Part shown: piece by piece, positions 4,208 to 26,291 of the stretch
Layout: every line of letters starts with the position of its first letter
Position numbering within the stretch: position 1 is the first letter of the stretch
DNA from: Nitrospirota bacterium
Lineage (GTDB): Bacteria; Nitrospirota; Thermodesulfovibrionia; Thermodesulfovibrionales; UBA6898
Length of the DNA stretch: 35,338 nucleotides
Direction of reading: 5' to 3'
Assembly (NCBI GenBank): GCA_021811105.1
Contig: JAJZPM010000041.1
Span: 1 to 35,338, forward strand
Translations under genes and position numbers: made by a program
Notes under the pieces: model-generated
What the model saw: only the letters and a program-made list of their open reading frames with translations
What the model was told of the DNA's origin: nothing
The model's database searches: none

Positions 4208-4231
4208 ATGGAACTAAGCAAGGGGAGGCAT

Positions 4232-6160
4232 ATGGCAAGGAAATGCTTTGTTGTCGCCGTTGCAGTATTTGTCTTTTATCTGTTCTTCTTCCCTGTCTCA
4301 GGTTTTTCCTCCGAGACAGACGCCGGTAATCAGACCGAAGGCGGAGGGATGTCCGCCGCCGAATTGACAAAGAAGGAGCTTCTCCTTTTCTGGGACGAGA
4401 AAGACCTCTACGTCCAGTCTGCCACGAGGCATGAGAAGCCGATCTCGCAGGTGGCCGAGAACATGACGGTGGTCACCGCAAAAGAGATCGAGGACATGAA
4501 CGCACATACCGTCGCCGAGGTCCTCAACCGGGTGACAGGTATCTTCGTCGATTTTGGTACCCAGGATTTTGGGAGTCCTTCTGTCCTGCATATCCAGGGC
4601 TCTGAGAACAGGCATGTCCTTGTCCTGCTCGACGGCGTCACCTGGAATTTCCTCTCAGAGGGCGGCGCAGAGACGAATTCGATACCAGTCAGGATCATAA
4701 ACCGCATAGAGATCATAAAAGGGCCTGCGTCCTCGGCTTGGGGTTCGTCGCTGGGAGGTGTTATCAACATCATCACGAAGAACACCGGAGACACTGCCGT
4801 GCCTTCAGGGACACTGAGCGGCTCATACGGAGAAAGGAATACGCAGGACTATAACGGCGAGGTTTTCGGCAAGGCAGGTCCTGTCGGATATTATGTGTTC
4901 GGGGGCAAGCAGCGGTCTGACGGCCTGAGAGAAAACAGGTGGTTCGATAATTATAGCCTCTATTTGAAGTTCAGGGGCGATATCTCGAAGGACGTGAATA
5001 TCGGCTTTACAGCAGGTTACAACGAGCCGCACCAAAAATTCCTTGATTCCCCTGCCAACGATTTTACTTCCAGGGGAATTACTCGTACTTTTTTTGTGAC
5101 GGGCTCGCTGGATGCTGCTATAACTTCGGAACTTAGCTTCCAGGCATCTTTTTACACGTTCAAACAGAAATTAGCCCAGTTGAACGACTTTCTCAGCACC
5201 GGTGAACCCTTCCTGCATATCACGTACGATGAAAAAACGACTGCAGGGAGCGGCAAACTGGTATGGACGCATGGTATACATACAGGGGTGGCAGGCGCCG
5301 AATTCAGCAGGGGGACGCTCGACCAGACGTTTGGTGGCATGTTTTCTTTGACCACGAACCCCTCTATCGACAAATGGGCGGTGTATGCGAACGATACGGT
5401 TTCCCTTGGTAAATTTACGGTTACGCCAGGCATCAGGCTCGACCATAATAATGTTACAGGCTCTTTCACGAGCCCGAGCATCGGGGTCACATACAAACTT
5501 CTGGATAAAACAATCCTAAGAGCGTCGGTCGCACGGGGATTTACCATTCCACCGCTTTCGTTTACTTCCGGCGGCGGAGTTTTCCTCGACCCGAACCCGG
5601 ACTTGAAGTCCGAGAGTGTCTGGTCGTACCAAGTCGGCGCGGAATCGAACATCACAGATTTCCTATGGGTGAAGGCGACCCTCTTCCGCTACGACCTGAA
5701 GGATGCTCTTACGCCTGTACTTGCGGCTTCCGGCAATCTTATAGAGATTAACAGCGGAGACGAGAGGCGCCAGGGGCTCGAACTGGAGGCAGAGACAGTA
5801 CCCTTCTACAATGTTTCTCTCAAGGCGGGTTTTGCCTACGTGGATAAGAAGCCTTCCGAAGAGCTGGAAAGCACGGTGAATTATTCATACAACATAGGCA
5901 TCAAGTACGACGATAGGAAAACCTTCATGGCACAGCTTTTCGGCCATTATGTTTGGTGGGACTTGACGGAAGGAGATGCCGCAAAGTACGATACCTTTAT
6001 ATGGGATCTCAATATGCGGAAGGGCGTATACTCGACAGGAAAGATAAATGCGGAGGTTTTTGCGACCGCCCACAATATCTTCAATGGTTCCTACTACACC
6101 TTCGGCGACCGGATGAACCCGCGGAGATGGGTGGAGGCCGGCCTCAGGGTCAAATTCTGA
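4232..6160 (+). CDS. TonB-dependent outer-membrane receptor
   Basis: A 22-strand-barrel-type outer-membrane transporter energised by TonB, 642 residues. The ATG at 4232 is chosen over 4208 because GGGGAGG lies 4 bases before it and because the protein then begins with a normal signal peptide (MARKC, then a hydrophobic run to about residue 25). The plug domain (about residues 60-175) shows the typical AENMTVVTAKEIEDM entry, a VLVLLDG strand and the IEIIKGPASSAWGSSLGGVINIITK end. The barrel ends in a terminal Phe (GLRVKF). The class resembles BtuB/colicin-type receptors, whose ligands are cobalamin, siderophores, other metal chelates or peptides. The ligand is unknown. It precedes the small peptide and radical SAM genes by 118 bases, and a peptide-related ligand is possible. 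Confidence 0.9.
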   Translation: MARKCFVVAVAVFVFYLFFFPVSGFSSETDAGNQTEGGGMSAAELTKKELLLFWDEKDLYVQSATRHEKPISQVAENMTVVTAKEIEDMNAHTVAEVLNRVTGIFVDFGTQDFGSPSVLHIQGSENRHVLVLLDGVTWNFLSEGGAETNSIPVRIINRIEIIKGPASSAWGSSLGGVINIITKNTGDTAVPSGTLSGSYGERNTQDYNGEVFGKAGPVGYYVFGGKQRSDGLRENRWFDNYSLYLKFRGDISKDVNIGFTAGYNEPHQKFLDSPANDFTSRGITRTFFVTGSLDAAITSELSFQASFYTFKQKLAQLNDFLSTGEPFLHITYDEKTTAGSGKLVWTHGIHTGVAGAEFSRGTLDQTFGGMFSLTTNPSIDKWAVYANDTVSLGKFTVTPGIRLDHNNVTGSFTSPSIGVTYKLLDKTILRASVARGFTIPPLSFTSGGGVFLDPNPDLKSESVWSYQVGAESNITDFLWVKATLFRYDLKDALTPVLAASGNLIEINSGDERRQGLELEAETVPFYNVSLKAGFAYVDKKPSEELESTVNYSYNIGIKYDDRKTFMAQLFGHYVWWDLTEGDAAKYDTFIWDLNMRKGVYSTGKINAEVFATAHNIFNGSYYTFGDRMNPRRWVEAGLRVKF

Positions 6161-6277: not shown

Positions 6278-6379
6278 ATGGAAAGAGAAGAGATCGAAGT
6301 GATCGACTGCGGCATGGACCTCGGGGGCGTGGGTTCCTTGGCTGGATGCTGTATGACTGCGTTTATTCCTTTCAGGTAA
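6278..6379 (+). CDS. Putative RiPP precursor peptide (33 aa, Cys-containing)
   Basis: A 33-codon reading frame with an excellent start (AAGGAGG 6 bases upstream) behind a near-consensus promoter. The N-terminal part (MEREEIEVIDCG) is acidic. The middle is Gly-rich (GGVGSLAG), followed by the Cys-Cys pair and a hydrophobic end (CCMTAFIPFR). Cysteines are residues 11, 24 and 25. A short acidic leader, a Gly/Cys core and a radical SAM/SPASM gene next in line are what one expects of a ribosomally made, post-translationally modified peptide. The pair reminds me of the putative geopeptide/maturase systems annotated in Geobacter, but I cannot confirm family membership. The product structure and role (signal, metallophore, toxin or cofactor) are unknown. 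Confidence 0.65.
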   Translation: MEREEIEVIDCGMDLGGVGSLAGCCMTAFIPFR

Positions 6380-6392
6380 TATCGGCGAACGA

Positions 6393-6422
6393 GAAGAGGG
6401 GGATGGCAACATTCCCCTCTTC
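6393..6422 (+). promoter_or_regulatory. Hairpin between precursor peptide and maturase genes
   Basis: GAAGAGGGG (6393-6401) pairs perfectly with CCCCTCTTC (6414-6422) around a 12-base loop. Only three T residues follow, so it is a weak terminator at best. An attenuator or an mRNA-stabilising 3' end for the short peptide transcript fits, because RiPP precursors are usually needed in excess over their enzyme. It would sequester the ATG at 6403. Confidence 0.55.
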
Positions 6423-6438
6423 TTTGAGTAGACCTTTC

Positions 6439-7746
6439 ATGCACCTGTCCAATTATATTAAGTCCTTTAATTACGACGAAAAACCCGGTAGCCATCTCGT
6501 ATACTCCACGAAAAGGGCAGCGGTGCTTGTCCTCAAGAAAGAGATCATCGAATCAATAGAGAGTGGCACGTTGTCCCTGGCGGCAGAGAAAACCCTGTCC
6601 GACCTCGGGATTATCATCCCAGACAAAGAGGCAGAAAAGAAATCCATGCTCGGTCTCATCGACGGACTCAATGCAAGGGACACGGGGATGAACGTCACGG
6701 TCGTGCTGAACATGGACTGCAACTTCGCCTGCGTCTACTGCTATGAGGGCGAGATGAAGGGCAGGCTCTACATGACGGAAGACATTGCGGACCTCCTCAT
6801 AGATTTCATTAAAGAAAAATTCACTGATACAACAAAATCGATAAACATAGATTTTTTCGGCGGAGAGCCGCTTTTGAGTAAAGATCTTATCAAGTATATT
6901 TCACATGCCATGAAGTCTTTTGCGGGAGACAAAGGGGCTGAATATACCTTCTCTCTCGTTTCGAACGGTTCGCTCCTGAAAAGGGAGGTGGCGGAGGAGC
7001 TGAAGGCACTGGGGATGCAGGGCGTGAAGATAACCCTCGACGGCCCCGCGGAGATCCACAACAAATACAGGCCATTCAAAAAAGGCGGCGGAAGTTTCGA
7101 TGCGATCATCAGGAACATAAAGGAGACCTGCGATCTCGTAAAGATCGGCATCGGCGGCAACTTCGACCAGGAGAACTATCAACGCTTTCCCGAACTCCTC
7201 GATTACCTCGAAAAGGAGGGGCTGACGCCGGACAAGATCTCGCAGGTGAAATTCGATGCGGTGATGAAGCGGCCCAAGGGCGATGCGTCGCCGGCCGATT
7301 ATGTGGACGGATGCATGTCGATCAACGAGCCGTGGCTGATAGCGGCCGGTATCTATCTGAGGGAAGAGATTTTGAAGAGGGGTTATTCCACCCCCAGGAT
7401 AATGCCGATGCCCTGCCAGGTCGAGCTGAAGAACTCCTATGTGGTGCACTTTGACGGGACGCTTTACAAGTGTCCGGGGTTTATCGGGAAAAAAGGGTTC
7501 GAGACAGGCAGTCTCAGGGAAGGGATGACGGACTACTCTGCTTCTTACAAGACCGGCATCTGGAAGAACGACGAATGCCTCGGCTGCGAATACCTGCCGC
7601 TTTGTTTCGGCGGTTGCAAATACATGACCTATATACGAGATGGAAATGTCGAAAGCATAGACTGTAAAAAGCCTTATCTCGACGCGTCTCTCGAGGCGCT
7701 GGTCAGACAGGACATCAACTACAGGCGTCAGGCAAGGGCGAAATAG
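6439..7746 (+). CDS. Radical SAM/SPASM peptide maturase
   Basis: A radical S-adenosylmethionine enzyme of the SPASM class, which installs thioether or carbon-carbon links in ribosomal peptides using extra iron-sulfur clusters. From the ATG at 6439 it has 435 residues. The N-terminal 90 residues (HLSNYIKSFNYDEKPGSHLVY onward) look like the peptide-binding region of such maturases. The radical SAM motif is CNFACVYC (Cys94, Cys98, Cys101), followed by FFGGEPL. The SPASM cysteines are 326, 345, 380, 383, 389, 393 and 409, the normal seven-cysteine pattern. Earlier in-frame ATGs at 6346 and 6403 are less likely: the first overlaps the peptide gene and the second lies in the hairpin. There is no clear Shine-Dalgarno before 6439, so the start is uncertain. 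Its likely substrate is the 33-residue peptide just upstream. Confidence 0.88.
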   Translation: MHLSNYIKSFNYDEKPGSHLVYSTKRAAVLVLKKEIIESIESGTLSLAAEKTLSDLGIIIPDKEAEKKSMLGLIDGLNARDTGMNVTVVLNMDCNFACVYCYEGEMKGRLYMTEDIADLLIDFIKEKFTDTTKSINIDFFGGEPLLSKDLIKYISHAMKSFAGDKGAEYTFSLVSNGSLLKREVAEELKALGMQGVKITLDGPAEIHNKYRPFKKGGGSFDAIIRNIKETCDLVKIGIGGNFDQENYQRFPELLDYLEKEGLTPDKISQVKFDAVMKRPKGDASPADYVDGCMSINEPWLIAAGIYLREEILKRGYSTPRIMPMPCQVELKNSYVVHFDGTLYKCPGFIGKKGFETGSLREGMTDYSASYKTGIWKNDECLGCEYLPLCFGGCKYMTYIRDGNVESIDCKKPYLDASLEALVRQDINYRRQARAK

Positions 7747-23053: not shown

Positions 23054-23644
23054 ATGTCTTATGTTGCAAAAGATTACAGCAAACTGATAGGGATGGCGGG
23101 ATTCAGCGAAACGCTCCTGAAGAACCATTTTACCCTGTATCAGGGGTATGTGACGAACACGAACAAGGCGCTCGATATTTTGGACCAGATGCTGAAAGAC
23201 GGCAAGACGGGTGTGCCTGAGTATGCGGAAATCAAGAGGAGGCTCGGGTGGGAGTTCAACGGCATGAGGCTGCATGAGTATTATTTCGAAAATCTCGGCG
23301 GCAAGGCTCCCCTCGACAAGTACGGCCCTCTGGGCAAGCAGATGCAGTGCGATTTCGGCAGCTATGAGATGTGGGAGAAGGATTTCAGGGCAACAGGGTC
23401 GATGCGGGGCATCGGATGGGCGGTGCTGTATCAGGACAGCGTGAACCGGAGACTCTTCAACTTCTGGATAAACGAGCACGATGTTTCGCATCCCGCCGGG
23501 TGCGCGCCGATACTGATCATGGATGTATTTGAACATGCCTTTATGATCGATTACGGGCTGAAGAGGGCCGATTATATCGAATCGTTCTTCAAGAACATCG
23601 ACTGGGCGGCGGCCGGGTCGAGGGTGCTGGGAAAGGAGGAATAA
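23054..23644 (+). CDS. sodB: Superoxide dismutase (Fe/Mn)
   Basis: Disproportionates superoxide to oxygen and peroxide in the cytoplasm. 196 residues, normal for the family. Metal ligands are His25 (KNHFTLYQGY), His74 (MRLHEYYFENLGG), Asp157 and His161 (DVFEHAF). WAVLYQD stands where WAVLYYD is common. Metal choice (Fe or Mn) cannot be read with confidence; several Gln/Gly markers differ from E. coli SodB. AAAGGAGGAG gives a strong start. The stop codon overlaps the next ATG (TAATG), so the DsrC-like protein is translationally coupled to it. The gap 22890-23053 contains TTGACA at 22957 but no properly spaced -10. Confidence 0.93.
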   Translation: MSYVAKDYSKLIGMAGFSETLLKNHFTLYQGYVTNTNKALDILDQMLKDGKTGVPEYAEIKRRLGWEFNGMRLHEYYFENLGGKAPLDKYGPLGKQMQCDFGSYEMWEKDFRATGSMRGIGWAVLYQDSVNRRLFNFWINEHDVSHPAGCAPILIMDVFEHAFMIDYGLKRADYIESFFKNIDWAAAGSRVLGKEE

Positions 23645-23988
23645 TGGCGGACATGGAAATTGGCGGCCGCCAGGTCACTGTGGATGATGAAGGGTATCTT
23701 GTCAGCATGGACGACTGGAACGAAAAAGTGGCATGCGCGCTCGCGGAGCAGGAGGGCATCGACGAACTGACGGATGACAGGATGGCGATCATCAGGTTCA
23801 TGCGGGACTATTACAAACAGTACAACTACTTCCCGATCCTGGGGTCGGTCTGTCTTCATGTTCACCAGCCCGACAAGTGCGTGAAGCAGGAATTTATGCA
23901 CCCTCTCAAGGCATGGAAGATCGCGGGACTTCCCAAGCCTCCGGATGTTGTTCTCGCCTATCTGAACTACGGCCAGGTGCCGACGTAG
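23644..23988 (+). CDS. DsrC/TusE-like protein lacking both redox cysteines
   Basis: 114 residues of the DsrC/TusE/DsvC fold: EIGGRQVTVDDEGYLVSMDDWNEKVA at the N-terminus, LTDDRMAIIRFMRDYYKQYN in the middle and KIAGLPKP near the end. True DsrC carries sulfur on a C-terminal arm with Cys in ACxxAGLPKPTGCV. Here the first Cys is Trp91 and the second Val102, followed by an 11-residue tail ending YGQVPT. It cannot form the usual DsrC trisulfide. Cysteine-free homologues of DsrC have been described as regulatory (Rsp-type) proteins. Other cysteines (29-31 region, 69 region, 78 region) remain in the domain. Coupling to superoxide dismutase suggests a stress or redox-regulatory role. Confidence 0.85.
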   Translation: MADMEIGGRQVTVDDEGYLVSMDDWNEKVACALAEQEGIDELTDDRMAIIRFMRDYYKQYNYFPILGSVCLHVHQPDKCVKQEFMHPLKAWKIAGLPKPPDVVLAYLNYGQVPT

Positions 23989-23999
23989 AATGTCGCAGG

Positions 24000-24040
24000 A
24001 AAAACCCCCTCAGCCCGGACGGGTTGAGGGGATTTTTCTT
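24000..24040. terminator. Bidirectional intrinsic terminator
   Basis: CCCCTCAGCCC (24006-24016) pairs with GGGTTGAGGGG (24021-24031) with one G-T pair and a 4-base loop. AAAAA before and TTTTT after provide U-tracts in both directions. It ends the superoxide dismutase operon on the plus strand and the small peptide gene on the minus strand. Confidence 0.85.
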
Positions 24041-24056
24041 GTAAGGCATATTTACG

Positions 24057-24119
24057 TTAGCAGGAACTCTTGCATTTGCAGGTCGTCGCACATTTCTTCT
24101 GGACCTTCTTTATCGTCAT
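24057..24119 (-). CDS. Putative Cys-rich RiPP precursor peptide (20 aa)
   Basis: A 20-codon frame with a good Shine-Dalgarno (AAAGGA about 10 bases before ATG). The peptide starts MTIKKVQ and ends KKCATTCKCKSSC, with cysteines 10, 14, 16 and 20 and six lysines, then a TAA stop. It lies 43 bases after the radical SAM/SPASM gene. A promoter inside the 3' end of that gene and a strong terminator 16 bases after the stop make it a complete transcription unit. The basic, four-cysteine tail could be a thioether-crosslinked RiPP core or a metal-binding peptide. There is hardly any leader, which is odd for a RiPP. No TGA (selenocysteine) is involved. Confidence 0.6.
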   Translation of the reverse strand: MTIKKVQKKCATTCKCKSSC

Positions 24120-24147
24120 AGCCACACCGTCCTTTCGTAGGAGGATT

Positions 24148-24162
24148 GCGGCTTCACGCCGC
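24148..24162 (-). promoter_or_regulatory. Hairpin in the leader of the 20-aa peptide gene
   Basis: GCGGC and GCCGC form a 5-base stem with a 5-base loop immediately after the stop codon of the radical SAM gene. It would form the 5' end of a transcript starting near 24166 and may stabilise it. Confidence 0.4.
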
Positions 24163-25314
24163 CTATGACTCCATTATATCACACGACGGATGGCTGTAAA
24201 GGGCGCAGCGGAAAAGGTCCCTGCCGAAGGGGCCGTCGAGGGTCTCCGCCCTGTATCTGCAGCCGCCCCTGCACTGCTCGATGTAGCGGCAGTGGCATCT
24301 CAGCGCGTCGAGCCTCACAGGCGGGATCCTTTTCCAGCATTCACCAAGCCCGTCCCTGATCGTTCCCACGGAGCGGTCGGAATAGAACGTGCATTTTGAA
24401 ACTGCTCCTGCTGCATTCACCGACATGAGATGGAGACCGCAGGCAAAGCCGGGAGTGCTCGCATGAAGTCCTTCTCCGCGGCCGTAGGCAAGATATTTCC
24501 CGCCGGTTTCCGGATCGACAAGGAAGTCCCTATTCAATTCCAGTCTCCCCGTCGTGCACGGCACGTCTACAGTCCAGTCTTTCACCCCGAGTTCGTCGAA
24601 GAGCCTCTGCATGGCGTCGAAGTCACAGAGGTTCTTCGCATGGACCATCGTCGAGACCGAGACATCGAGTCCCTCATCGCGGCATTTTCTTACGGCATTT
24701 ACCGCGACTGCAAAGGATCCCTGCCCCCGGAGCGCATCATGGGCGTTTTCAAGTCCGTCAATGCTGATCTGGACCTCGTCCACCTTCAGTTGCGCAATTT
24801 TTCCCTTATCGAGGAGCGCGCCGTTAGTGAAGAGGATTTTCCTAAGGGAAAATTCAGGGAGCATTTCGTTCAGGTCAGTATATCCGCTGTGCAGAAGAGG
24901 TTCTCCGCCCGTGATCAACACACGCAGACCCTGCATGGCCTCGAACTCCGAAAGGACGGCCCGTATCTCCTTCAGGGAGAGTTCGTTCGACCCGCTCTCA
25001 CCGATGTAGCAGTGCCGGCACCTGAGGTTGCACTTGTCGGTGATCTGCAGCTCAAGATACCTGAGGGAAGGGACGGGCGACTTCAGGACGGCAGGCCGCC
25101 GCGCGGAGACCCTCTGCGTCGTCAGGATGTCTTCTTTTATGCAGTAGTCGATGAAAATGCCGGCCTCTGAAGAGCAGCCCTCGGTCAGCGCGCAGTGCTT
25201 CAGAAAGTCGAAGGCGTCTTCGTCGACTTCATAAAGCTCGTCTGCCCCGATATCGTATACCGACGGCGTTTCGAGCCATTTAAGCACGCATTTGCCGGAC
25301 AGGAAATAATGCAT
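24163..25314 (-). CDS. Radical SAM/SPASM protein, probable peptide maturase
   Basis: 383 residues. Residues about 5-75 (CVLKWLETPSVYDIGADELY and following helices) look like a PqqD-type peptide-recognition domain. The radical SAM motif is CNLRCRHC (Cys95, Cys99, Cys102), followed by ITGGEPLL and QISIDGLE. The SPASM region has cysteines 292, 308, 326, 340, 342, 348, 352 and 370; the core reads C-x-C-x5-C-x3-C instead of the common C-x2-C-x5-C-x3-C. It probably modifies the 20-residue peptide encoded downstream. TACAAT lies six bases before the ATG with TTTAAA 18 bases further up, so transcription may begin at the start codon (leaderless). The gene is divergent from the seven-cysteine protein at 25462. 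Confidence 0.85.
   Translation of the reverse strand: MHYFLSGKCVLKWLETPSVYDIGADELYEVDEDAFDFLKHCALTEGCSSEAGIFIDYCIKEDILTTQRVSARRPAVLKSPVPSLRYLELQITDKCNLRCRHCYIGESGSNELSLKEIRAVLSEFEAMQGLRVLITGGEPLLHSGYTDLNEMLPEFSLRKILFTNGALLDKGKIAQLKVDEVQISIDGLENAHDALRGQGSFAVAVNAVRKCRDEGLDVSVSTMVHAKNLCDFDAMQRLFDELGVKDWTVDVPCTTGRLELNRDFLVDPETGGKYLAYGRGEGLHASTPGFACGLHLMSVNAAGAVSKCTFYSDRSVGTIRDGLGECWKRIPPVRLDALRCHCRYIEQCRGGCRYRAETLDGPFGRDLFRCALYSHPSCDIMES
24173..24200 (-). promoter_or_regulatory. Internal promoter for the 20-aa peptide gene
   Basis: On the minus strand TTTACA (24200-24195), 16-base spacer, TATAAT (24178-24173). It sits in the last codons of the radical SAM gene. Predicted start near 24166, 47 bases before the peptide ATG. 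Confidence 0.55.
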
Positions 25315-25461
25315 GCCTTATTGTACTGCGGAGAGGCGTCTGATTTAAAGGTTAGGGGCAGGCATGCCATGCCCGTCATTGTAGTGCCACCAAGAGAAAG
25401 ACGCATCATTATGTCCACAAGTTTTTTTGCAATTGCACTTTTTGGAGAGATACTATTAAAT

Positions 25462-25788
25462 ATGACTCTCGAACAAAGTCTCTGCCGGCGTTTCTGCTTT
25501 TATTACAAGCCGTCGAAGCGCGAGGAACTGGCCTGCGGGGGCTACCGCATGGTGGAGCGCCTGATCCGGCGTGGGAAGAAGATATCGTTCGAAAGGTCAG
25601 GAAAAGCCTTTGGCCCAGAGACCGTGGATGCCCTCGAAGAGGCTTTATGCCGGAGGTGCCCTTTTTTCGCGTACGACTGCGACTTCGCCGTAAACAAGGA
25701 GGCGCCGCCTTGCGGCGGCTATCTCCTGATAGGGCAGCTTCTTGAGTCCCGAACGGTGTCTCTTGACGACCTCAGGGATATGGATTAA
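25462..25788 (+). CDS. Seven-cysteine protein with internal duplication, unknown function
   Basis: 108 residues from the ATG at 25462 (GGAGAG upstream, spacing long; an in-frame ATG at 25411 would add a hydrophobic stretch and is less likely). Two halves repeat the pattern L-C-R-R-x-x-F, then C-G-G-Y about 13-18 residues on, then a helix: LCRRFCFYY...ACGGYRMVERLI (about 7-35) and LCRRCPFFA...PCGGYLLIGQLL (about 62-94). Cysteines are 8, 12, 25 and 63, 66, 73, 84. Such clusters suggest iron-sulfur or zinc binding, or a substrate for cysteine chemistry. There is no signal peptide. It diverges from the radical SAM gene and is 32 bases upstream of the ferritin-like gene. I recognise no named family. 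Confidence 0.7.
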   Translation: MTLEQSLCRRFCFYYKPSKREELACGGYRMVERLIRRGKKISFERSGKAFGPETVDALEEALCRRCPFFAYDCDFAVNKEAPPCGGYLLIGQLLESRTVSLDDLRDMD

Positions 25789-25820: not shown

Positions 25821-26291
25821 ATGGAAAACTTTTCATTGCGCGAGGCGGTCGAACAGGCGATACAGACGGAAAAACTGGGATACGAGTTCTACCGGGCCAT
25901 GGGGGAGAAGTTCAAGGAGAATAGCGGGATGAAAGAGCTGTGTGAGACCTTGGCGGAAAAAGAGCGCGTTCACGAAAAGACGTTCTCGGACCTTATGGAC
26001 GGTGTAAAAGAGTCGGGCGAGGTGGACTGGGAAGAGGTCTCGATGTATCTGAGGGCGATCGTCGAGTCCGAGTTCTTCCTTGGAAAGGGTAAATCCCTGC
26101 CTTCTCTGGACCGCGTGAAGACCGTGGCCGATGCGGTGAAATTTGCAGTCGGGTTCGAGAAGGAGACGCTGCTTTATTTTTATGGCGTCAGGGACCTCAT
26201 CAAGGAAAAAGATGTGCTTTCCCATATCATCGAAGAGGAAAAGAGCCATATCGTGTGGCTCAATAAACTCCAGGTTACTTCCATAAAGTAG
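25821..26291 (+). CDS. Rubrerythrin/ferritin-like di-iron protein
   Basis: 156 residues forming a four-helix bundle. Carboxylate and His ligands are visible as E17 (TEKLGYEFY), E48-x2-H51 (AEKERVH), the Glu residues of GFEKETLLYFY and the C-terminal EEEKSH motif. Family members reduce peroxide or store iron. There is no C-terminal rubredoxin domain, so it is the erythrin-only type. AAGGGGG precedes the ATG. It is co-directional with the seven-cysteine protein and near superoxide dismutase, consistent with an oxidative-stress neighbourhood. Confidence 0.85.
   Translation: MENFSLREAVEQAIQTEKLGYEFYRAMGEKFKENSGMKELCETLAEKERVHEKTFSDLMDGVKESGEVDWEEVSMYLRAIVESEFFLGKGKSLPSLDRVKTVADAVKFAVGFEKETLLYFYGVRDLIKEKDVLSHIIEEEKSHIVWLNKLQVTSIK

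Follow-up and report, generated by a model that had tools for sequence, protein, structure and literature searches.

A 20-residue cysteine-containing peptide and its co-occurring radical SAM/SPASM enzyme: a likely minimal RiPP-type system in Nitrospirota

The window analyzed here, the whole 35,338-nucleotide stretch of contig JAJZPM010000041.1 from a Nitrospirota bacterium, probably encodes a minimal radical SAM peptide-maturation system of the RiPP type, widely present in several lineages of the Nitrospirota. A radical SAM/SPASM enzyme and a 20-residue peptide co-occur across genomes whether or not their genes are linked, and a divergent cysteine-rich protein shares their distribution; the chemistry of the modification and the function are inferred, without expression, mass or binding data. 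The peptide would be among the shortest radical SAM peptide precursors and is easily missed by ordinary gene calling, and since such precursors can lie far from the maturase, searches limited to the neighbourhood miss them. The three-gene set behaves as a conserved function and not as an optional antibiotic, and its joint travel suggests that these Nitrospirota rely on an uncharacterised modified peptide for something basic. A sequence-only reading of the locus had proposed a RiPP-like peptide behind a radical SAM/SPASM enzyme. The locus held, with all of the named elements present, and is larger than first described, the third conserved component having been missed; the RiPP-like label is supported by the combined RRE, radical SAM and SPASM fold and by the co-occurrence of enzyme and peptide.

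The 20-residue ORF (24057-24119, minus strand; MTIKKVQKKCATTCKCKSSC), which starts at 24119, 43 nt past the stop codon of the 383-residue enzyme ORF, is a real gene. A 20-residue ORF of the same kind is found behind nearly all of the family's enzyme copies with sufficient contig, which argues against chance; in the window's own family it has the same ending wherever the contig extends far enough, and in the L030 copy, where the enzyme ends in a run of unknown residues, no peptide is visible. Chance is further excluded by the third-position excess in codons 2-13, the region that no search pattern constrains (1423 differences at third positions versus 418 at first and 479 at second positions), and by the near-fixed length, 91 of the 96 distinct sequences having exactly 20 residues and the other 5 having 19.

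The peptides share the end C-K-C-[KH]-x-S-C. The conservation of CKCK and SC in the table of 96 peptides is partly imposed by the search pattern, and the truly fixed residues, judged from a search for C-x-C only and from the histidine variants, are C14-K15-C16, S19 and C20, while I3, K5, V6, K8, K9 and T13 are strongly kept. Lys17 is replaced by His in some peptides (C-K-C-H-S-S-C or C-K-C-H-Q-S-C). Position 10 is Cys in the window and its genus, rarely outside, and elsewhere V, T, A, S, G and others, so that the earlier description of a four-cysteine peptide held only in part: three cysteines are conserved and Cys10 is not. The claimed near absence of a leader peptide also held in part, as a leader of 10 to 12 residues is real, short and conserved (M-x-I-x-K-V-x-K-K) and precedes a C-terminal octapeptide, T-C-K-C-K-S-S-C. 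The window peptide has no Glu or Tyr, neither of which is conserved in the set. As a rule, a genome carries a single copy of the peptide. A scan of enzyme homologues for short cysteine peptides, which the sequence-only reading had proposed as a check, was positive, with the peptide adjoining the enzyme or elsewhere in the genome; under a loose criterion (10 to 60 residues with C-x-C), the peptide adjoining most named relatives is of the CKCK[SGN]SC type. An NCBIfam search with the peptide gave nothing convincing. The literature searched, which omits most subscription papers, contained neither CKCKSSC nor the combinations of Thermodesulfovibrio with RiPP and radical SAM or of CutA1 with radical SAM and a cysteine-rich protein. 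The enzyme was not found in viral contigs, and the plasmids searched yielded nothing closer than a single distant radical SAM protein (26.5% identity). A match to the peptide pattern in a viral contig (L263), reading CCETTCKCKSCC, has no start codon before it and was dismissed as chance.

The distribution was surveyed in 396 Nitrospirota genomes, and our claims are limited to that phylum, to which the window organism belongs; its named relatives are titled Nitrospirae, Nitrospirota or Thermodesulfovibrionales bacterium, and the best 80 in a scan of 286 relatives are all titled Nitrospirota or environmental bacteria. The enzyme occurs in 118 of the 396 genomes (22 of 27 in the window's family), 115 of which also carry the C-K-C-[KH]-x-S-C peptide, whereas 272 genomes have neither. 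This meets the criterion for RiPPs of the rSAM-RRE class that the precursor be conserved with its maturase. The exact peptide pattern was present in 117 genomes, together with the enzyme in 111, and the reversed pattern used as a control gave no match in any genome. Seven enzyme genomes at first seemed to lack a peptide, and a looser pattern recovered the Lys17-to-His form in four of them; in one of these (G064) the reading frame of the peptide has no start codon, possibly through a sequencing error. Three remain without a peptide (G026, G059 and G306), and in the first two the contig runs out at the locus. Within the order, both genes are present in 91 genomes and absent from 35, with disagreement in 8 (126 of 134 agree), and several families hold both the presence and the absence state. 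The Fisher p values for co-occurrence (5e-88 in the phylum and 1e-23 in the order) are overstated, relatives being non-independent. The peptide lies within 3 kb of the enzyme in 75 of the 111 genomes; in the others (families f2, f6, f9 and others), it is far from the enzyme, beside unrelated genes, with its sequence kept. One contig (L188, G007:C26) carries the peptide twice, at a distance of about 1.5 kb and with other ORFs between the copies. Each copy follows a truncated enzyme 3' end, an arrangement that resembles a duplication that disrupted the enzyme. We rejected dsrA as a metabolic correlate: it is near-universal in the order, occurs in genomes without the system and was missing from the matches in some that have it. 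The system is therefore independent of sulfate reduction.

The 383-residue enzyme (24163-25314, minus strand) matches Pfam Radical_SAM (E 2.5e-20), and its cluster-binding motif, C95-x3-C99-x2-C102 (CX3CX2C), is invariant in 69 homologues. The SPASM region (24205-24441, minus strand; C292-x10-G-x4-C308 ... C340-x-C342-x5-C348-x3-C352 ... C370) has invariant columns in the sets of 21 and 69 homologues, and its seven cysteines, invariant in the 69, are spaced CX10GX4C ... CXCX5CX3C ... C against the general motif CX9-15GX4C-gap-CX2CX5CX3C-gap-C (PMC6231123). The C-x-C spacing that had been called unusual is thus real and invariant, but it is less unusual than claimed, as CXC is also marked in the SPASM domains of SkfB and PqqE (PMC6231123). 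The AlphaFold model (pLDDT 93) was most similar in structure to SuiB bound to SuiA (5v1t, Z 26.8, model residues 2-374, with the alignment to 5v1t_A starting at residue 2), followed by SkfB (Z 26.5, aligned from residue 7), anSME, CteB and ChlB; SkfB was the top match by Foldseek and by sequence. In the model, residues 1-70 (25105-25314, minus strand) form beta-strands and then two helices with an RRE-like wing, and they are likely to be a peptide-binding domain, a prediction without binding data behind it. The PqqD-like N-terminal region claimed earlier is therefore upheld by the predicted fold and by the SuiB and SkfB alignments, not by Pfam, where no PqqD match was found. In NCBIfam, 79 families matched the enzyme, the best 25 all far under their cut-offs and the top one being NirJ (105 of 515 bits).

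Leaders bind RREs by strand addition in NisB, LynD and CteB (PMC6231123). In a docking construct joining the L092 enzyme and peptide, with two stop codons read as glycine, only I-R-K of the peptide becomes a strand (pLDDT about 55-60), and the core is disordered (pLDDT about 41-55). The partner of this strand was not read, and the prediction is compatible with addition of the leader to the RRE without proving it. Nor is the SuiB-like fold proof of RRE binding, since the RRE of SuiB is not what SuiA relies on (PMC6231123).

By sequence, the peptide has its own promoter, a structured leader and a terminator, whereas the enzyme gene looks leaderless. The promoter, TTTACA-N16-TATAAT, lies within the enzyme gene (24173-24200, minus strand) and has an extended -10 element (TGATATAAT, 24181-24173). 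TATAAT is found upstream of 60 of the 96 peptides, compared to 4.6 in shuffles. Among 56 linked enzyme copies, 36 have it at the 3' end (30 with a preceding TGN), as against none of 20 unlinked copies, meaning those without an exact-pattern peptide close behind. Because TATAAT tracks linkage, the C-terminal Y-[DG]-I-[IM] of the enzyme in linked copies is best read as promoter sequence. Conservation with the peptide supports an internal promoter, as an inference from sequence alone, and the unlinked peptides of family f6 have their own TATAAT and hairpins. Leader hairpin 1, GCGGC-GUGAA-GCCGC (24148-24162, minus strand), is supported by covariation, with two-sided changes at all six pairs and an AYGAA loop in most relatives. 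Hairpin 2, UCCU-ACGAA-AGGA (24130-24142, minus strand), overlaps the Shine-Dalgarno sequence and is paired in 92.4% of cells in relatives, with two-sided changes at two of three consensus pairs. For both helices together, 90.1% of cells are paired, and the covariation score of 0.597 compares with 0.199 for shuffled alignments and at most 0.249 when slid. The leader model, R1, scores 46.3 bits on the window. The hairpin is missing in some groups. The ribosome binding site is AAAGGACGG in the window and mostly AAAGGAGGTG or AAAGGGAGGTG in relatives. Behind the peptide, a Rho-independent terminator (24000-24038, minus strand) folds at -27.7 kcal/mol (z -5.5, with 0 of 200 shuffles as good), and terminator-like sites follow 55 of the 96 peptides versus 6.5 in shuffles. 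Of the elements claimed earlier, the internal promoter and the terminator thus held; the leader hairpin held by covariation in relatives, but the lowest-energy fold of the window sequence itself has other pairs here and does not stand out (z -1.2); and the binding site, given as AAAGGA, needed correction. The enzyme gene has a -10 element, TACAAT, five nucleotides 5' of its ATG (25320-25325, minus strand). A -10-like hexamer lies 3 to 9 nt (mostly 5 to 7) before the ATG in 56 of 62 homologues, compared to 2.5 when shuffled, and none of the 62 has a Shine-Dalgarno-like sequence, so that the enzyme mRNA is probably leaderless.

The candidate third component is a protein of 108 residues (25462-25788, plus strand) encoded divergently, directly upstream of the enzyme. 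Its family (about 105 residues; ...CxxxCxYYKPxK...C...CxxCxF...CDF...PCGGF) has seven invariant cysteines and no significant match in Pfam, NCBIfam or PDB sequences. It occurs in 116 of the 396 genomes and in 108 of the 118 with the enzyme, and all three components are found together in 105. Mere linkage does not account for the shared distribution, since only 42 of 106 copies lie within 3 kb of the enzyme. A part for this protein in the system remains a possibility that rests on distribution alone, and since six genomes carry it without enzyme and peptide, it may have a wider role. Among the unlinked copies, 7 of the 12 examined overlap or closely adjoin a CutA1-like gene (L249-L252, L255, L256 and L259; three Pfam-confirmed), and in one genus the protein is fused to a cupin-like domain (Pfam matches below threshold). 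The Pfam name of CutA1 is divalent ion tolerance protein, and the two associations may hint at metals, though only by inference. In several f6 genomes, about 3 kb separate the cysteine-rich protein gene and dsrA.

By analogy with SkfB, CteB, SuiB and PqqE, we propose that the leader binds the enzyme and that the octapeptide is radically modified. The peptide would be produced in excess over the enzyme, and its N-terminal strand, I-x-K-V, would bind the wing of the RRE and so bring T-C-K-C-K-S-S-C to the SAM cluster. The 5'-deoxyadenosyl radical would then abstract a hydrogen from a core residue, and the thiol of Cys14, Cys16 or Cys20 would close onto the radical carbon with the SPASM clusters accepting an electron, giving a small thioether-bridged peptide. 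Thioether formation is our leading guess because of the three invariant cysteines; the sequence-only reading had suggested a thioether-bridged or a metal-binding product, and the sequence evidence settles neither. With weaker support still, the mature product may be a thiol, metal-binding or redox molecule with a housekeeping role alongside the cysteine-rich protein. The neighbourhoods examined in relatives held no recurrent peptidase, exporter or other transporter, or immunity gene beside the enzyme or peptide, and this, together with the near-invariant core and the usually single copy, favours a conserved cellular function over an antibiotic. Against the proposal as a whole stand the lack of direct evidence of any modification, the absence of a peptidase or exporter with the genes, unlike in typical sactipeptide clusters, the p values that ignore shared ancestry and the disordered core of the docked peptide.

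The known systems that come closest share some features and differ in others. SuiB/SuiA, which makes the Lys-Trp cross-link of streptide, has the same RRE, radical SAM and SPASM parts and matches over nearly the whole model, but the identity is 14-17% and the Lys-Trp target contrasts with a cysteine-rich core without Trp here. The thioether maturases SkfB and CteB share the three-part layout and a cysteine-bearing substrate, but are only 17-20% identical to the enzyme, which scores 54 of 300 bits against the SkfB NCBIfam model, far under its cut-off; moreover, SkfA is a 55-mer (PMC6231123), compared to 20 residues here, and the SkfB and CteB clusters hold peptidases and ABC transporters that are absent here. 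The PQQ system has a very short precursor (PqqA, 29 residues in M. extorquens [PMC10906245]), PqqD-like recognition and a SPASM enzyme, but its PqqD is separate or fused to PqqC, the Glu-x3-Tyr cross-link pair of PqqA is not met by our peptide, and no pqqB/C/F-like genes recur near the peptide. GeoRSP (TIGR04303; 86 of 400 bits) and SynChlorMet (TIGR04250; 95 of 400 bits) show radical SAM/SPASM similarity only, far under the cut-offs. SCIFF peptides have six cysteines in about 45 residues, a criterion that a 20-residue peptide with three conserved cysteines does not meet. Sactipeptides and ranthipeptides are marked by a thioether from Cys S to C-alpha, C-beta or C-gamma, and our peptide has cysteines from which such a bond could form.

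The alternative that survives best is that the enzyme modifies the peptide without forming a thioether, through a Lys-Cys or Lys C-C cross-link, epimerisation or a change to the C-terminal Cys, the last in parallel to MftC, which alters the terminal Tyr of MftA. This is possible: Lys15 is as invariant as the cysteines, the Ser-Cys end is constant (partly fixed by the pattern, but also seen in the C-x-C-only search), and SuiB, the best structural match, makes a Lys-Trp C-C bond (PMC9012708). Against it, three invariant cysteines within seven residues point to sulfur chemistry, His can stand in place of Lys17, and the top matches SkfB and CteB work in thioether chemistry. It is unlikely that the peptide is no substrate at all and works unmodified, either by binding a metal or cluster or by serving the enzyme as carrier or activator. 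The cysteine-rich end, the lack of a protease or exporter, the partner with seven invariant cysteines and its CutA1 and cupin associations would fit, but the enzyme is built like the peptide-modifying maturases, RRE-like domain included, and nothing else conserved beside it looked like a candidate substrate. A classic secreted sactipeptide, antibiotic or signalling, is very unlikely: the enzyme has the same architecture as SkfB, but transporters, immunity genes and peptidases do not recur next to the genes, and the core is near-invariant in many families, unlike the cores of antibiotics, which are usually variable. A conserved regulatory RNA with the short ORF as a mere by-product, which the flanking covarying hairpin and terminator might suggest, is all but excluded by the third-position bias in codons 2-13, the fixed length of 19 to 20 residues and the keeping of the peptide sequence where the leader hairpin is absent (e.g., L059, L064 and L139).

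Beyond the minimal maturation system that we favour, a bolder reading is that one radical SAM enzyme turns the octapeptide core into a novel small molecule, a thiol-based cofactor or one that handles metals, which the cysteine-rich protein would use or act alongside in a core function of these Nitrospirota. The product would then be likened to PQQ and mycofactocin, which are peptide-derived cofactors; on balance, we lean against this reading.

Some further observations concern the leader RNA and the surroundings of the locus. Outside the peptide gene, the next-best match of R1 in its own genome is a flagellin leader (L225 1501-1563, G000:C45:55877-55939; 31.7 bits) with two similar hairpins ending in a Shine-Dalgarno sequence; the remaining matches are terminators or ordinary leaders, and we therefore claim no leader-RNA regulon. 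Terminator-like hairpins with the same kind of loop (GGCCGGC-AUGAA-GCCGGCC) occur in a relative (L235 and L236), and the leader loop may thus be merely a stable one. The only Rfam match near the locus, to a miRNA model below threshold, was put down to chance. The flanking genes encode an Fe/Mn superoxide dismutase, a DsrC/TusE-like protein and a rubrerythrin-like protein (in the window, 23054-23644, 23644-23988 and 25821-26291, plus strand), and about 16 of 80 relatives also have the superoxide dismutase close to the enzyme. Elsewhere in the window, another radical SAM protein (6346-7746, plus strand) is encoded beside a TonB-dependent receptor (4208-6160, plus strand), and this pair is perhaps the first RiPP-like locus implied by the sequence-only reading, which had called the present locus the second.
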